Shown piece after piece: positions 48,187 through 55,116 of a DNA stretch of 64,000 nucleotides. The notes below the pieces were generated by a model, which did no database searches, had not been told where the DNA came from, and saw nothing but the letters and a program-made list of their open reading frames with translations. A program made the translations under genes and the position numbers. The stretch spans positions 124,001-188,000 of the forward strand of contig JAUNHV010000002.1 of assembly GCA_030523725.1 (NCBI GenBank), written 5' to 3'. Positions within the stretch are counted from its first letter, which is position 1. The number at the start of each line of letters is the position of its first letter. The DNA comes from Synergistaceae bacterium. GTDB taxonomy: Bacteria; Synergistota; Synergistia; Synergistales; Synergistaceae.

Positions 48187-49068
48187 TTAATTGAGATTAG
48201 CAAGAAAGAAACTTCTTTTGTAACAAAAGAGGTTTCTTTTTGTTTTTGCTAAAAGTGATGATAGCTCGTCAATCAATTCGCTGGGTAAAATTTCTTTTCC
48301 CTCAACTCTTGGGGTGTCGCACTCTCTATCTCCTGTTGCAATTAAAGTAACAGTTACAAGCCTTTTAATTTCATCGTAGACAAAATGAATTTTCCAAATT
48401 CCGTCAATTCTTGGTTGCACACCGCTTGTGCGAAAATCATTTGTATAAAAAATTCCGTTATTAGCACTTGCTTCTATGGCGCGAAGCCCCATAACCATAT
48501 CATTTTTACCGATAGAGTAACTACTGTCAGTTTGGCTTATCACCCGTATGTAATTACTTGTTGCACTGGTAATGCGAAATACCTTATTGTCGATATTAGC
48601 AGATTTCAGTATAACGTATGACTTTATGTTATATGCAGAGACAGAAAACTTATTTGCGTCTATTGCCGAGGTAAAATCAATAGCGCAGGAGCCAGCATCA
48701 GTGCTTATATTGTTTTTAACCAAAGTGTATAGTGGAAGGGCATAAAAGATTCGAATTTTTTCATTGGTTACGCAAGAAATTGCCCACCCCCAAGAAAAAG
48801 GCTCTGTTATTGACGAAAAAAAATGGCTACTAAATTCTTTCCCTGATAACATTGCAAAACCTGCATGATAGAGAGGTTGTTTTAGCAAAGCAAAAACAGA
48901 ATTTGCCCGGCTTGTTGCAATTCGCCTATCTAACATTCTCCAATATGAATCTGAAACCGTAGCAATGGTACGAGAAATGATAAATATGGCTGGTAGGGTT
49001 ATTGCAAATGCAAGCAAAATCTCAAGTATCGTAAAGCCTCTGTGAGAGCTACTTTTTGATAAAAACAT
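48187..49068 (-). CDS. Type IV pilin-like protein (minor pseudopilin)
   Basis: Probably a minor pilin of a type IV pilus or DNA-uptake pseudopilus. The 293 residues carry a class III signal, HRGFTILEILLAFAI, with cleavage after Gly at about 11 and Glu5 of the mature protein, and a hydrophobic helix (about 12-32). The rest is a beta-rich globular domain without a recognised family; Cys positions near 118, 146 and 251 are visible. Its last 15 or so codons overlap the terminator of the convergent gene. It overlaps the next upstream pilin-like gene by 20 bp. Confidence 0.75.
   Translation of the reverse strand: MFLSKSSSHRGFTILEILLAFAITLPAIFIISRTIATVSDSYWRMLDRRIATSRANSVFALLKQPLYHAGFAMLSGKEFSSHFFSSITEPFSWGWAISCVTNEKIRIFYALPLYTLVKNNISTDAGSCAIDFTSAIDANKFSVSAYNIKSYVILKSANIDNKVFRITSATSNYIRVISQTDSSYSIGKNDMVMGLRAIEASANNGIFYTNDFRTSGVQPRIDGIWKIHFVYDEIKRLVTVTLIATGDRECDTPRVEGKEILPSELIDELSSLLAKTKRNLFCYKRSFFLANLN
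48208..48249 (+). terminator. Terminator of the UPF0173 gene, inside the pilin-like gene
   Basis: A 13-bp stem (48208-48220 with 48224-48236, one G-T pair) with loop TAA, followed by TTTTTGTTTTT. It ends rightward transcription but lies within the 3' coding end of the leftward pilin-like gene. In the leftward sense the tail is the weak TTTCTTGC. Confidence 0.82.
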
Positions 49069-49345
49069 ATTTTGTCCCTATGTCTGTTGTGACAGAAAAT
49101 TTATAAAACGCCACTCCGTCAAAATAAATTGTTTCACCGGTGTGCTTTACAGTATTTTGGTTTTCATTGTAAAAATCTGACACTTGGCAAACAGAATTGA
49201 AATGTTGCATATTTTTCTTAAAGCTTACAATTGAAAAATTTATCACTTGGAAAATTGCAATGACAACACTAAAAAATATTGATATGACAATTATTGTTTC
49301 AAATAGGAAAAAAGCATCTTGCGTCTTTTGTATTTTTTGCTTCAT
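49049..49345 (-). CDS. Small prepilin-like protein
   Basis: 98 residues with a prepilin-like N terminus: QKTQDA before FFLFETIIVISIFFSVVIAIF, giving Glu at position 5 if cleaved after Ala11. The leader is unusual in having Ala instead of Gly at the cleavage site. The remaining 60 residues are soluble and unrecognised. It overlaps the minor pilin gene by 20 bp and lies 6 bp from pilT, so all three are one transcript. Probably a minor pilin of the same system. Confidence 0.6.
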   Translation of the reverse strand: MKQKIQKTQDAFFLFETIIVISIFFSVVIAIFQVINFSIVSFKKNMQHFNSVCQVSDFYNENQNTVKHTGETIYFDGVAFYKFSVTTDIGTKYVFIKK

Positions 49346-49351
49346 TCGTAT

Positions 49352-50323
49352 TTAACCTGTTAGGTTTCCAAATTTTTTCGTTAATCTTTCAGTATCTTGC
49401 TTCAGAGTAAACATTCCAAAATTGCCACCGCTTGATATAGCATCTTGTAGAGCTGTTTCTTTGTCATCAACTATGCAATTTTCCACTGCTTTTGTATGTA
49501 ACAAAAGCTCTGTAACTGCGCGTGGCTTTCGCATATCGTCAAAAAGCATTTTTTGATGGATTATAGCAGTAAAAACTCGCGCTATGCGATTTCTAGCATC
49601 GGACTTATTACTTTTAAACAATTCACTAAATCTTTTAGGCACTCCTACTGTGCTAGAAGAATGTATAGTAGCAAAAACAAGTCTGCCAGTTTCTGCTGCA
49701 GTGAGGGCAGCCTCAGCTGTTGCCTCATCTCTGATTTCTCCTATCATAATTACATCTGCATCTTGTCTTAAAGCTGCTACCGTTGCTGTTGCAAAATTTG
49801 CTGTGTCCTGTCCAACTTCACGCTGATGAATAATTGATTTTTTCTCGTTAAAAATATATTCTATCGGATCTTCTATTGTCACGATGTGACAAGGTCTTGT
49901 GTTATTGATTTCTTCTATCATAGCTGCCATGGTAGTGCTTTTGCCACTCCCCACGTTGCCACTTACTAGAATAAGTCCATGATGCTCCAGTGCGATTTTG
50001 CTAAAAATAGGTGGTAAAGAAAGCTCTGTAACATTTGGTACATAGCACGGTAATACCCGTATTGCAATAGATTTTTTACCATTGGAAAGAAAATAATTAC
50101 AACGTAACCGAATTCCGTCCATAGTTGTGCAAGAAAAATCTTTTTCATATAAATTAAGCGGAAATTTCGTTTCCAGATCTTTCCAAAAATTTTCTATTAC
50201 AGCTTTATCAAACGAAACTTTTTCTATTTTATTTGCAATACGAAGTGAAACGCATTTACCATCTGCTATATGTATATCAGTTGCGTTTTTTTCTATTGCT
50301 AAACTAATCAAATCTTCAAACAT
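49352..50323 (-). CDS. pilT: Type IV pilus retraction ATPase PilT
   Basis: Hexameric motor that pulls pili back, giving twitching or DNA uptake. The 323 residues have an N-terminal PAS-like domain (DIHIADG), Walker A SGNVGSGKSTT near 125, the Asp box TIEDPIEYIF, the Walker B MIGEIRDEATAEAAL near 195 and the His-box FATIHSSS. ATG 50323 is chosen for its GAGAGG ribosome-binding site; nine extra codons upstream are open. The extension motor, PilC and PilQ are not in the window. Confidence 0.93.
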   Translation of the reverse strand: MFEDLISLAIEKNATDIHIADGKCVSLRIANKIEKVSFDKAVIENFWKDLETKFPLNLYEKDFSCTTMDGIRLRCNYFLSNGKKSIAIRVLPCYVPNVTELSLPPIFSKIALEHHGLILVSGNVGSGKSTTMAAMIEEINNTRPCHIVTIEDPIEYIFNEKKSIIHQREVGQDTANFATATVAALRQDADVIMIGEIRDEATAEAALTAAETGRLVFATIHSSSTVGVPKRFSELFKSNKSDARNRIARVFTAIIHQKMLFDDMRKPRAVTELLLHTKAVENCIVDDKETALQDAISSGGNFGMFTLKQDTERLTKKFGNLTG

Positions 50324-50376
50324 GGTTTTACCTCTCAATTCAAATCTCAAAATATTACCACAAGACTATAGTTTTG

Positions 50377-50385
50377 TGCTATAAT
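50377..50385 (+). promoter_or_regulatory. Extended -10 promoter of the binding-protein/synthetase unit
   Basis: TGC followed by TATAAT (50380-50385), 35 bp before the ATG at 50421. No clear -35 hexamer, as is usual for extended -10 promoters. Confidence 0.6.
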
Positions 50386-50420: not shown

Positions 50421-51977
50421 ATGAATGTTAAAGAATCCACTATTGAATTAACAAAAAAATATGGTTGGAATCTGCTTTCTGATCCTGATAGATTGTCTCA
50501 GATGCTCGAATTTGAGTGTGAGGATCATGAACGTGAGATATTTTGTGTTACGCTAGTTGTGCGTTATCTTCTACAGAAGATTCGTCGTATCTCCCCTAAT
50601 GTACCCTACGTGACAGAAGACGACAAAGAACGATTGATTCGTATTTTTTATCTTTCTGACGAGGATGCTAACAATGCTATTGACATAGTTAATTCTGCCG
50701 TTGCTGTAACTTGTGACGATGGAGTTACATGGTTTGCTGAACCTGGCAGATTACGCAATGTGCACTCCGTTACTCCTAAAAATAATACAAATCCCGTGAA
50801 AAACAGTGTAAAAAGTATTTTTATAATTGTCCTTTTATTTATTGCTCTAGGACTGATAGTGTATCATGCTGAAAGTTTGAAAAAACCTAGAAATGGAGAG
50901 TTAACAGTGGCATTTATGTTGCCCCTTTCCCATAAGGAAAGTAACTCTTCTTATCTCTTGTTAAAATCAGCTCAAATGGCAGCTGAAAAAATAAATCTAC
51001 AATTAAAGTTCCAAGGTGGCTATCGTTTGAAGCTCTTAGGAGTTAATCTACCAACAAAAGACGAAGAGAATATTGCACAAACGAAAAGAATTTTGAAAAA
51101 ATCATCTGCTGCTGCAATCGTCTCTATTGGTGGTGCTGCTTCTGAACGTATTTCAAAAATTGCCAATGAACTTGAAATACCCATATTTTTCACGGGAAGG
51201 TATTTGCCAAGGAAAGAAGCCTTAAAATTCGGTTCAATTCTAGCTCCCTATACCTTTATGCTCTCAAACAACGCTGAGTCAAAAGGAAAAGCTCTTGCAT
51301 ATTTTGCCACTCATGGTTTAAGAAAACGTCGTATAGGTATTGTAACAGACTTAGATGACCAATCTGCACTAGAAATAGAACGTAGTACTAAAAAATGGGT
51401 CAGGTCATTTGGTGCTCGTGTGGTTTGTAAGTCTTATCTAAATGCAAGTGAGACAAACATGGATGCTATCGTTGAAAAATTACAAGCATCTAAACCGAGC
51501 GTTATAATCATTCTTGGACAAGATACAAGGTATAGAATGGCAAACTTTATCCGTACATCAAGCAATATGAAATCTTCTATTGTTGCGCTTGATTATGATA
51601 ATATCCAAGCGAAAGGAATGAATTTAGTTGATTCATGGTGGCTAAATGAGGTGACTGATTTGGATGTTGCTTCCGTTTCCTTTGTGTCGGAATTTGAATC
51701 AAAGTATGGCAAAAACGTCACACCTGTTAACATAACTGATTCCATTATGGCGTATGATTCCATTTTGTTTATTTCGCAAATGTTTGAAAGAGCAACAAGT
51801 TTTCGTGGCGAGTCTTTAAGACATACCATTATGTCCATGGAATATATTCCTTTGTTATCGGGTGTCGTTACTATGAACCAAAGGACACATGCACCACTTG
51901 ACAATTCATATTCGCTTATAAGGATAGAGCAGTCAGTCCCAGTTTTTCAGAGAAAACTAAAACTAACAACGAGATAA
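50421..51977 (+). CDS. Membrane-anchored type I periplasmic-binding-protein-like protein with cytoplasmic domain
   Basis: Function unknown. The 518 residues split into three parts. First is a cytoplasmic region (about 1-125) that begins like the small 'YGwxLLSDPxRL' domain seen at the start of various bacterial proteins. Next is one membrane helix (about 132-149; FIIVLLFIALGLIVY). Last is an extracytoplasmic domain (about 160-518) with the LivJ/Peripla_BP_6-like pattern: VAFMLPLS, AAEKINLQL, AIVSIGGAASE, then IGIVTDLDD near 300. No lipobox or transporter gene is present. The join of an inner domain to an outer sensor suggests signal or substrate sensing. It is 24 bp before the synthetase gene with no terminator. 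Confidence 0.7.
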   Translation: MNVKESTIELTKKYGWNLLSDPDRLSQMLEFECEDHEREIFCVTLVVRYLLQKIRRISPNVPYVTEDDKERLIRIFYLSDEDANNAIDIVNSAVAVTCDDGVTWFAEPGRLRNVHSVTPKNNTNPVKNSVKSIFIIVLLFIALGLIVYHAESLKKPRNGELTVAFMLPLSHKESNSSYLLLKSAQMAAEKINLQLKFQGGYRLKLLGVNLPTKDEENIAQTKRILKKSSAAAIVSIGGAASERISKIANELEIPIFFTGRYLPRKEALKFGSILAPYTFMLSNNAESKGKALAYFATHGLRKRRIGIVTDLDDQSALEIERSTKKWVRSFGARVVCKSYLNASETNMDAIVEKLQASKPSVIIILGQDTRYRMANFIRTSSNMKSSIVALDYDNIQAKGMNLVDSWWLNEVTDLDVASVSFVSEFESKYGKNVTPVNITDSIMAYDSILFISQMFERATSFRGESLRHTIMSMEYIPLLSGVVTMNQRTHAPLDNSYSLIRIEQSVPVFQRKLKLTTR

Positions 51978-52001
51978 AACACCTATAAGGAGCGTAGCGT
52001 G

Positions 52002-55000
52002 ATGACCAATTTAGGAAAATTTTACACCGAAAATCCAAATCTTCGCATTGAAGAGGCTGTAAAAATAGTTTGGAAAGGTGAGGAAGATAAAAGAAATCTG
52101 TGGTGGCAGGGACATTGGATAACACACAATGAACTGTTGCCGCTCATTGCATTCTATAAGGAGAAATTTGCTGCTACAGGTTTTTCCGAGGGGCAAAGGA
52201 TAGCTATCCTTTTGCCGAATTCCCCAACTTTCATTGCAATAATGTTTGCCACGTGGGAACTTGGTGGTGCGATTTGTCCCTTAAATGCGAGAGCCGGTGT
52301 AGCCCAACTTGTTGACACAATTAAAAAACTTGATGTTGCCTTTATAATCACGACTGAAGAAAATGTTGCAAAAGCTGGGGAACTTGCTCAGAGGATACCC
52401 ATAATTCCCGTGCCACTTTTTGGCAAAACGGAAGCAGAATGGCATGCTAGAATTGGGACACAAGAGTCACGTGATATTGCGGTCATTTTTTCAACCAGTG
52501 GTACGTCTGGTTTGCCTAAAGCTGTCCCCTTAACACACAGTAATATTATTGCAAATGGAGTAGGACAAGTATTACATTTTGATGATTTCTTTGTAAATGA
52601 TAATATATTTCTTTTTATATTACCAAATTTCCATACATATGGTCTAAACATAGGCTGCATCATTCCTTTCCTTTATTGTATCCCGACTGTTGTTGTGCCA
52701 AATTTTGTTCCTGTTACTAATACCATAAAAGCACTTCAGGAAAGTGGAGCAAACTTCCTCATTGTAGTCCCGACCATTTTAGCTTTCATAGTAAGTGCTC
52801 TCGAAAAAGCTAATATAAGACTTTCTGGCATAAATTTCATTATTGCTGGTGGTGATAAACTTAATACTGCACTAGATGATAAATGTGCCGAATATCTAGG
52901 TTGCAGAATTGTGGAAGGATATGGTCTTACTGAATGTTCGCCAACAGTTGCAGTAGCGGAAAGCCTGGCTAAGAGAAAATTGGGGACAATAGGCAGAGCC
53001 CTTGCTAACATTGAAATAGAAGTTAGAGATAGGGAGGGGAATAAATTAGATTTGCATGACGAAGGTGTGCTTTGGTTAAAGGGACCTTCCATTGTGAAAT
53101 CATATTTTCGTGATGAAGAAAACACTCGTGAACGTTTTAAGGATGGCTGGTTCAATACTGGAGATGTCGTCCGTATAGACAATGAAGGGTATATATCTGT
53201 GGTTGATAGAGCAACAGATATAATAATAGTTGGTGGTTTCAATGTGTATCCCCAAGAGGTGGAAGCTGTTTTGTCGCAGCACCCCGCTGTGGCACAAGCA
53301 GTGTGTGTAGGGGAGAAAAATTCTGTAACTGGTGAAATTGTTAAGGCTTTTATAATACTTAAGCCTAATGCTACTGTAACAGCAAAAGAACTCGTGAAAT
53401 TTTCTAAGGAACACCTTTCACACTATAAAGTTCCACGCAAAATTGGTTTTGTTGAAAGTTTTCCTCTTTCTCCTGCTGGAAAGATTTTGCGCCGTGAGCT
53501 TCGAAAAATTGATATTCGCAAATTAGAGCAATCACAAGAGAATACACCATCGACTGAAAATCGTGATATGAGAACCTTCTATAAAAATCACTTGGATATG
53601 AGGATTGAAGAAGCGGTTTCACTCATCTGGAGAGAAAGATTGGGTTCGAAATGCTTGTGGTGGGAAGGTGACTGGATAACAGCAGCAACCTTTGCTGACT
53701 TGGTTACCTCTTACAGGGATTATTTGAAGGATGCTGGCTTCAAGGATGGAAATAGATGTATTGCCCTCCTTCCAAACTGTCCTTCAATGGCAGCAATAGC
53801 TTTGGCTACATGGCTACTAGGAGGGACAATTTGTCCACAAAACGCTAGAGCAGGTAACATCCAACTATCTAACATAATACAAAGTTTAGATGCTTCCTGT
53901 GTTTTTACGATAGAAGAAAATATGTCACGTGCAGATATAATTTCGTCCGGTGTTCCGATTGTTCCCGTTCCACTTTTTGGTTTGCCAAAGGCACAGATAA
54001 CTGTCAGACAAGGAACGCCTGGTTCACGTGATACTGCTGTTATCTTTTCTACAAGCGGGTCCTCTGGGCTACCAAAATTTGTTCCTCTTACCCATAAAAA
54101 TATTATCTGTGACTGTTGTGGTCCAGCAGAGCGAATAAATGGATTCATCAATGACCAAATTATTTTCCTTTGGATTTTGCCGAATTTTCACACATTTGGA
54201 CTTAACGTTGGTTTGCTACTACCGCTTCTGTATGGTTATCCAACTGTGGCTATCCAGAAGTTTATCCCAGTAGAAAAAACAATTGCTCAATTAGAAGCAA
54301 GCGGAGCGAATTTCTATATCATTGTTCCTACAATGCTTTCCTTCCTGCTCGCAACCTTGGAAAAGAAAAAAAAGAAGTTGGATAACATCCTCTATGTGAT
54401 TTCTGGCGGTGATAAACTGGACATTGAAATGGAGAAAAAAAGTAAGGAATATCTTGGTTGTGAAATCCTTGAAGGTTATGGGCTAACCGAATGTTCTCCA
54501 ATTGTGTCAGTAGGTGGCGATGGAAACAAAAAACGCCTTGGTACTGTTGGTCAACCATTCTCATTTTTAGAGCTCTCTATAAGAGACAAGGATGGGAATG
54601 AGCTGGAACTACATGAAGAGGGGGCTCTTTGGTTACGTGGTGAGTCAGTGACAAAATCATATTTTCGCGATGAAGAAAGTACACGGGAGCGTTTTAAGGA
54701 TGGCTGGTTCAACACTGGGGATATTGTTCGCATAGACAAGGATGGATTTATTACAATTGTTGATCGTGCGACAGATATAATCATCGTTGGAGGATTCAAT
54801 GTTTATCCTCAAGAAGTTGAAGCTGTCTTAATGCAACATCCTGATATTGCTTCTGCCGTGTGCATAGGAGAGAAAAATACAATTACGGGTGAGATTGTGA
54901 AAGCCTTTGTAATATTGAAGCCAGGGGCTAAGGTAACAGAAAATGACATTATTCGCTTTGCCAAAGCACAACTTTCACATTATAAGACACCAAGAAAAGT

Positions 55001-55070
55001 TATATTTTTAGATAGTTTTCCACTCTCACCAGCTGGCAAGGTATTTCGCAGAGCGTTAAAAAATATATAA
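52002..55070 (+). CDS. Tandem (two-module) acyl-CoA synthetase-like protein
   Basis: Two complete AMP-forming acyl-CoA synthetase modules in one chain of 1022 residues. Module 1 (about 1-505) has the adenylate loop STSGTSGLPK at 164-173, EGYGLTE near 305, GWFNTGD near 382, and the catalytic lysine of SPAGK at 494. Module 2 (about 520-1022) repeats each: STSGSSGLPK at 683-692, EGYGLTE, GWFNTGD and SPAGK at Lys1013. A linker rich in Gln, Glu, Thr and Ser joins them (about 507-522). Both look active and are similar along their length, with the same WW-G-WIT start, so this is an internal duplication. ATG 52002 follows AAGGAG. Confidence 0.88.
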   Translation: MTNLGKFYTENPNLRIEEAVKIVWKGEEDKRNLWWQGHWITHNELLPLIAFYKEKFAATGFSEGQRIAILLPNSPTFIAIMFATWELGGAICPLNARAGVAQLVDTIKKLDVAFIITTEENVAKAGELAQRIPIIPVPLFGKTEAEWHARIGTQESRDIAVIFSTSGTSGLPKAVPLTHSNIIANGVGQVLHFDDFFVNDNIFLFILPNFHTYGLNIGCIIPFLYCIPTVVVPNFVPVTNTIKALQESGANFLIVVPTILAFIVSALEKANIRLSGINFIIAGGDKLNTALDDKCAEYLGCRIVEGYGLTECSPTVAVAESLAKRKLGTIGRALANIEIEVRDREGNKLDLHDEGVLWLKGPSIVKSYFRDEENTRERFKDGWFNTGDVVRIDNEGYISVVDRATDIIIVGGFNVYPQEVEAVLSQHPAVAQAVCVGEKNSVTGEIVKAFIILKPNATVTAKELVKFSKEHLSHYKVPRKIGFVESFPLSPAGKILRRELRKIDIRKLEQSQENTPSTENRDMRTFYKNHLDMRIEEAVSLIWRERLGSKCLWWEGDWITAATFADLVTSYRDYLKDAGFKDGNRCIALLPNCPSMAAIALATWLLGGTICPQNARAGNIQLSNIIQSLDASCVFTIEENMSRADIISSGVPIVPVPLFGLPKAQITVRQGTPGSRDTAVIFSTSGSSGLPKFVPLTHKNIICDCCGPAERINGFINDQIIFLWILPNFHTFGLNVGLLLPLLYGYPTVAIQKFIPVEKTIAQLEASGANFYIIVPTMLSFLLATLEKKKKKLDNILYVISGGDKLDIEMEKKSKEYLGCEILEGYGLTECSPIVSVGGDGNKKRLGTVGQPFSFLELSIRDKDGNELELHEEGALWLRGESVTKSYFRDEESTRERFKDGWFNTGDIVRIDKDGFITIVDRATDIIIVGGFNVYPQEVEAVLMQHPDIASAVCIGEKNTITGEIVKAFVILKPGAKVTENDIIRFAKAQLSHYKTPRKVIFLDSFPLSPAGKVFRRALKNI

Positions 55071-55078
55071 TTTCATAC

Positions 55079-55116
55079 AAAAAGCGTGTATATGACGAAT
55101 CATATACACGCTTTTT
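55079..55116. terminator. Bidirectional terminator between the synthetase and glnN
   Basis: A 17-bp stem AAAAAGCGTGTATATGA / TCATATACACGCTTTTT with loop CGAA between convergent genes. Confidence 0.93.

Follow-up and report, generated by a model that had tools for sequence, protein, structure and literature searches.

A conserved Synergistaceae gene pair encoding a predicted membrane-anchored binding protein and an AMP-forming acyl-CoA synthetase

We found that two adjacent genes in a Synergistaceae genome, here called A and B, form a real gene pair that is conserved in the family. A encodes a type I periplasmic binding protein domain preceded by a single predicted membrane helix and an N-terminal cytoplasmic domain, and B encodes two AMP-forming acyl-CoA synthetase modules in one chain. 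Lack of co-conservation in relatives had been named beforehand as the outcome that would speak against the pairing; a B-type synthetase was instead found directly downstream of A in 27 of the 45 family genomes that could be judged, the Thermanaerovibrio lineage included. A chance pairing would not explain adjacency that relatives share, and the gene order suggests that the two products may share a joint job, such as the uptake and activation of fatty acids. Our tentative proposal is that A and B would form an inner-membrane unit that captures and activates outside carboxylic acids, most likely fatty or hydrophobic ones, with the resulting acyl-CoA going into lipids. The overall interpretation in an earlier note on this DNA, which considered either a system that detects an outside compound and activates acids or a scaffold that recruits the synthetase to the membrane, is partly supported. 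The features of the locus in the window, by which we mean the whole 64,000-nucleotide stretch of DNA that was analysed, are listed below.

50377-50385, + strand: extended -10-like sequence TGCTATAAT, from a pattern scan, without a -35 partner; weak
50421-51977, + strand: gene A, 518 aa, ATG start (ORF list, Pfam, hydropathy)
50421-50714, + strand: cytoplasmic domain at the N-terminus of A, residues 1 to about 98, helical, with no Pfam family
50817-50879, + strand: membrane helix of A, residues 133-153 (hydropathy)
50904-51917, + strand: Peripla_BP_6 domain of A, residues 162-499 (Pfam)
51987-51992, + strand: ribosome-binding site AAGGAG of gene B, read from the sequence
51999-55070, + strand: gene B, 1023 aa, GTG start, or ATG at 52002 (ORF list, Pfam)
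51999-53558, + strand: module 1 of B, with all five checked motifs present
53559-55067, + strand: module 2 of B, again with the five motifs; module 1 is its sister in the tree
55079-55116, + strand: intrinsic-terminator-like hairpin of 17 pairs with a T tail, from a terminator scan; clear

The ORFs and Pfam matches confirmed both genes at the stated positions, intact and on the same strand. The gap of 24 bp given in the earlier note is correct if B starts at the ATG, but it shrinks to 21 bp if the GTG is used. No promoter-like or terminator-like site was found around the A-B junction (51850-52150), and the strong terminator claimed at the end of the unit is there, as a hairpin followed by a T tail. 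The claimed extended -10 promoter fared less well: the sequence TGCTATAAT is present, but it is weak evidence for a promoter: TGNTATAAT occurs 7 times in the window, about twice the 3.85 expected, a number that 11 of 100 shuffles also reach, and the scan gave no -35 partner. Across the family the gap between A and the synthetase reaches ~290 bp, so that a single transcript is not certain everywhere. Among the other neighbours, a gene for a Type II/IV secretion ATPase (Pfam T2SSE) lies directly upstream of A on the minus strand, followed by two small proteins whose N-termini look pilin-like by eye (window 48187-50350), and glgB is found near the pair in several genomes, the window's included.

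The binding domain of A matched Peripla_BP_6 with 77.7 bits against a curated cut-off of 31.7 (E 1.7e-21), which makes it a type I periplasmic binding protein by Pfam, and a PDB profile search with the family alignment of A (A3, which includes L061 and omits L031, read in the wrong frame) matched LivJ-type structures (4gnr, E 5e-36). Hydropathy showed a single hydrophobic segment at residues 133-153, with a mean Kyte-Doolittle value of 2.38 compared with 0.99 for the runner-up. The net charge is +3 in the 20 residues preceding this helix and +2 in the 20 residues after it, and the N-side flank was the more positive one in 32/32 aligned A members, indicating that the N-terminus of A lies inside. 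The proposed order of cytoplasm, membrane and periplasm thus fits the domains, the hydropathy and the charge. Describing the outer domain as LivJ-like is right for the fold family; the ligand contacts, as we place them, appear not to be conserved. We equated alignment columns with what we take to be the amino-acid head-group contacts of LivJ, using presumed positions and spacing rather than a structure; under this mapping columns 238 and 257-261 vary among A members, and most members have Asp in column 284, where the window's A has Asn.

The N-terminal domain is predicted to contain five helices, in structure models of low confidence (pLDDT 45.6 for A built from three sequences, 50.0 for the domain modelled alone). 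Neither Pfam nor the PDB profile search assigned it to a family (best E in the latter 0.2), and Pfam searches of the whole protein and of this domain found no known output domain. Of 32 whole proteins 2 gave a match to EAD1 (best E 0.017), but none of 20 single domains did, and we do not rely on it. In a scan of 185 genomes of the phylum, 47 of the 52 listed family genomes carried the domain, each in one copy, and outside Synergistaceae the scan returned nothing but weak matches in G040, G057, G070 and G152, that in G040 (family f6) being the head of a protein with TPR repeats. Similar domains may occur in other phyla. The first ~55 residues are among the best conserved parts of A, with a mean pairwise identity of 0.50 compared with 0.41 for the binding domain, and within the ectodomain the C-terminal 120 residues are conserved best (0.52).

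The claim of a tandem synthetase was borne out, as B contains two AMP-binding and two AMP-binding_C stretches (Pfam). Both modules belong to the ANL superfamily by these domains and by their P-loop, hinge and C-terminal lysine motifs, for which we used patterns that we take to be characteristic; since these patterns miss some motifs in some relatives, the motif result was applied to the window's two B modules only. The best NCBIfam match of each module was a long-chain-fatty-acid--CoA ligase family, below its cut-off. Against PRK06187 and similar models the single modules scored 337.8 and 314.7 bits compared with a cut-off of 476, which does not place either in that family, and they also fell below the cut-off for MenE; the 645.9 bits obtained for whole B are a sum over the two modules.

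We next consider how widely A and the pair occur. Full-length A was present in 32 of 36 family genomes, the window's included, and absent from 4. A synthetase lies directly downstream of A on the same strand in 24 of these 32 genomes (again including the window's), and 8 have A without it. Fifteen further genomes added 3 with the pair, 10 without it and 2, G164 and G167, in which the contig ends within A and which were not counted. The host belongs to Synergistota (Synergistaceae), not to the Negativicutes as the earlier note had assumed; Thermanaerovibrio acidaminovorans is assigned to phylum Synergistetes and family Synergistaceae in the available text of its description (PMC3035242). The genera split cleanly, with A alone in g11, g12, g16, g17 and g18 and the pair in the others. 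The pair is present in the lineage made up of G001, G004, G021 and G031, so that under the assumed rooting it is simpler to suppose that the A-only group lost the synthetase. In the 18 of 45 judgeable genomes where no such synthetase follows A, the N-terminal domain is retained, which argues that it is not only a synthetase dock. A role as a mere dock is disfavoured by this persistence, and with it the scaffold idea is weakened.

We examined the history of the synthetase in a tree of 70 stretches from fetched loci; stretches of less than 400 residues, including the L072 copy and the first L059 copy, were left out. All A-linked synthetase rows (29/29) fell into one clade with no other row inside (SH-aLRT 93), and the synthetases fetched from A-only genomes fell into other clades. 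The window's two modules are mutual sisters with support 100/100. Constraining module 1 or module 2 to group with its counterpart in the fused protein of G005 and G023 was rejected (p-AU 0.00014 and 1.6e-7), and G003, G008 and G022 show a third arrangement, an adjacent pair of unfused synthetases. Taken together, the sisterhood, the rejected constraints and the unfused arrangement indicate that the synthetase at the A locus was probably duplicated at least three times and fused twice, the window's fusion being its own. Gene conversion within the window's B could mimic an independent duplication. Elsewhere, two adjacent synthetase genes without A occur in family f3 (L127:5364-8730, L128:4866-7852 and L129), adjoined in L127 and L128 by a pyruvate:ferredoxin oxidoreductase gene. 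The window's genome (G000) has fused AMP-binding proteins at L165:6631-8952 and L166:2390-4900, one with an Acyltransferase domain and one with a xylose-isomerase-like TIM barrel.

The window carries an unusual copy of the pair. The end branch of its A measured 2.6 changes per column in the A tree compared with a median of 0.19. Of 52 near-invariant columns its A deviates at 21; the other 31 A proteins deviate at 0 to 9 of 48-53. By these measures it is the most diverged copy and the least typical member of its family. The end branches of the B modules were 0.32 and 0.97 (median 0.15), an acceleration smaller than that in A. In this small genome, with an assembly of 1.55 Mb, A may be decaying or may have been re-tuned.

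In the sister family f7, a FadL gene lies directly upstream of a related synthetase in 3/3 genomes fetched, with a Pfam E of 2e-75 in L131 and, in G041, a FadL gene that runs partly off the contig. G038 of family f4 likewise has FadL directly upstream of a synthetase, though of another one. Of the 24 pair genomes 19 contain FadL, compared with 1 of the 8 with A only and 1 of the 4 without A; the difference between pair and A-only genomes gave a Fisher p of 0.0016, but with relatedness considered it reduces to one or two contrasts and is not significant. The 5 of 24 pair genomes without FadL include all four of the Thermanaerovibrio/G004 lineage. FadL, which FadL-linked uptake would need in the same genome, is present in two copies in the window's genome. 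In L155:7558-10203 (G000:C10) two FadL-type genes stand in tandem, and a PEPCK_ATP-like gene, scanned in its L157 copy, lies beside FadL in the window's genome and in some relatives. A genome search found no acyl-CoA dehydrogenase in 21 of 24 pair genomes, among them the window's, which argues against oxidation of the synthetase product and disfavours a catabolic role of B; a ketoacyl synthase match is present in the window's genome.

In the reading that we tentatively prefer, an outside acid would cross the outer membrane, through FadL where present, and in the periplasm would meet the Peripla_BP_6 domain that A anchors at the inner membrane. Once the acid is across that membrane, B would convert it on the cytoplasmic side to a CoA thioester and so trap it, and the acyl-CoA would be destined for lipids and not for beta-oxidation. 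A might hand the acid on, signal its presence by way of the N-terminal domain, or do both. We infer the ligand, the substrate, the contact between A and B, the direction of flow and the lipid fate. The conserved adjacency, the single A-linked clade, the FadL context, the missing acyl-CoA dehydrogenase and the best NCBIfam matches argue for this reading, as does the precedent of the R. palustris COG0683 binding proteins and PimA in the available text of PMC3223731. Against it stand the pair genomes that lack FadL, the 18 of 45 genomes in which A has no such synthetase, the NCBIfam scores below cut-off, the deviation of the window's A at 21 of 52 columns, and the lack of an identified path through the inner membrane.

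A could also be a transmembrane receptor in its own right, in which ligand binding alters the N-terminal domain and thereby a cytoplasmic partner, ancestrally perhaps in c-di-GMP turnover, with the synthetase as one output or as a co-regulated neighbour. A gene of the HD_5 (HD-GYP) type is divergent from A at the 4 pair loci of the Thermanaerovibrio/G004 lineage and at 14 of 18 A-only loci. Since A outlives the synthetase and adjoins an HD-GYP-type gene in two lineages, we regard the receptor as possible if somewhat doubtful, and as close behind the best explanation. The retention of A without a synthetase in 18/45, the good conservation of its first ~55 residues relative to the binding domain, and four GGDEF matches in the window's genome, in a row on one strand (L183-L186, G000:C8:18827-21560), are consistent with it. 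However, no divergent HD_5 gene was found in the stretch read at the other 20 of 24 pair loci, the window's included, no HD_5 match in the window's genome passes the cut-off, and A has no known output domain. At A-only loci, a ~310-residue protein follows A in 17 of 18 cases, with no Pfam match in the members scanned, and often there is also a relative of the L071 Ppx/GppA gene (L064-L071, L172-L182). Outside the Thermanaerovibrio/G004 lineage, pair genomes have other genes in place of these neighbours, often a DUF1850 gene.

An unlikely alternative is that A is an anchored substrate-binding protein feeding a LivHM-type ABC permease encoded at a distance, its cytoplasmic domain being incidental. 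Such transporters are the usual partners of Peripla_BP_6 proteins, and the window's genome has two BPD_transp_2 (LivHM-type) permease genes grouped at C3, so that the earlier description of A as 'without any transporter' is accurate for the locus but not for the genome. Neither the window nor the neighbourhoods read contain permease or ATPase genes at the A locus, as would be expected for an ABC subunit, and two other Peripla_BP_6 proteins over the cut-off in the genome could serve the permease. Such a role would also need no conserved cytoplasmic domain. Given the absence of permease genes at the locus and the presence of this domain, we keep an ordinary Liv component as a rival only.

LpoA is an envelope protein with which a ligand-free binding-protein fold can be compared, and A might be a structural or regulatory envelope protein of this manner, as the varying columns equated with LivJ contacts and the well-conserved C-terminal 120 residues could indicate; we consider this improbable, since it leaves the long-kept synthetase link unexplained and an altered pocket may simply mean a different ligand. 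It is just as improbable that A and B function separately and that their adjacency reflects nothing but inherited gene order: the presence or absence of the pair does track the A tree with about two changes, and the wide gaps leave one transcript uncertain in places, but the order survives at 21-29% identity of A to the window's copy while other neighbours change.

More broadly, A may represent, although we hold this with some doubt, a class of single-pass proteins seen here only in Synergistaceae, with a type I binding domain outside, an uncatalogued helical domain in the cytoplasm and a dedicated synthetase, in which recognition of an acid would control or feed its activation without a dedicated transporter. 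If this were true, then the repeated duplication and fusion of the synthetase at the locus would reflect selection for a two-module enzyme beside a receptor. Binding proteins matched with CoA ligases are already known at transporter loci. A transporter-free, anchored version retained across this family would offer a simple and testable model for the recognition and use of outside acids in anaerobic Gram-negative bacteria that mostly lack acyl-CoA dehydrogenase, and a first role for the uncatalogued cytoplasmic domain would follow from it.

In the FadL-FadD system of E. coli, an AMP-forming acyl-CoA synthetase traps outside fatty acid. The pair resembles this system in its AMP-forming synthetase and in the occurrence of FadL, in 19 of 24 pair genomes and beside related synthetases in sister families, but FadL-FadD works without a binding protein of the A type, and the operon partner here is A, not FadL. 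A TPR protein of family f6 (L116:1550-5098) shares the same kind of N-terminal domain (E 2.3e-5), followed by eye by a hydrophobic stretch and a large C-terminal part; in contrast to A, TPR repeats replace the binding-protein domain, and no synthetase occurs in the stretch read. The closest parallels come from R. palustris, where, in the available text of PMC3223731, COG0683 binding proteins often bound fatty and dicarboxylic acids in a screen, and two binding proteins encoded beside the pim operon (RPA3723-3725 and pimFABCDE) have a specificity that matches the acyl-CoA ligase PimA. The pim locus thus also has a COG0683-type binding protein gene beside an acyl-CoA ligase gene, but there the binding protein genes share a cluster with those of an ABC transporter, and beta-oxidation genes are also present (same text, PMC3223731), whereas A is membrane-anchored, has a cytoplasmic domain and has no permease gene nearby. 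Likewise, the gene for CouP lies near the p-coumarate CoA ligase gene RPA1787 in the same organism, a LivK-family binding protein and a CoA ligase for the same outside acid; unlike A, CouP belongs to the CouPSTU ABC transporter, takes an aromatic substrate and, as far as the available texts describe it, does not have the layout of a membrane-anchored receptor (PMC3223731, PMC3610893). Full-text searches of open-licence papers found no published account of the A-B pair. We regard A and B as a variation on this known theme of a binding protein plus a CoA ligase, with an unusual membrane-anchored binding protein and an inferred function.
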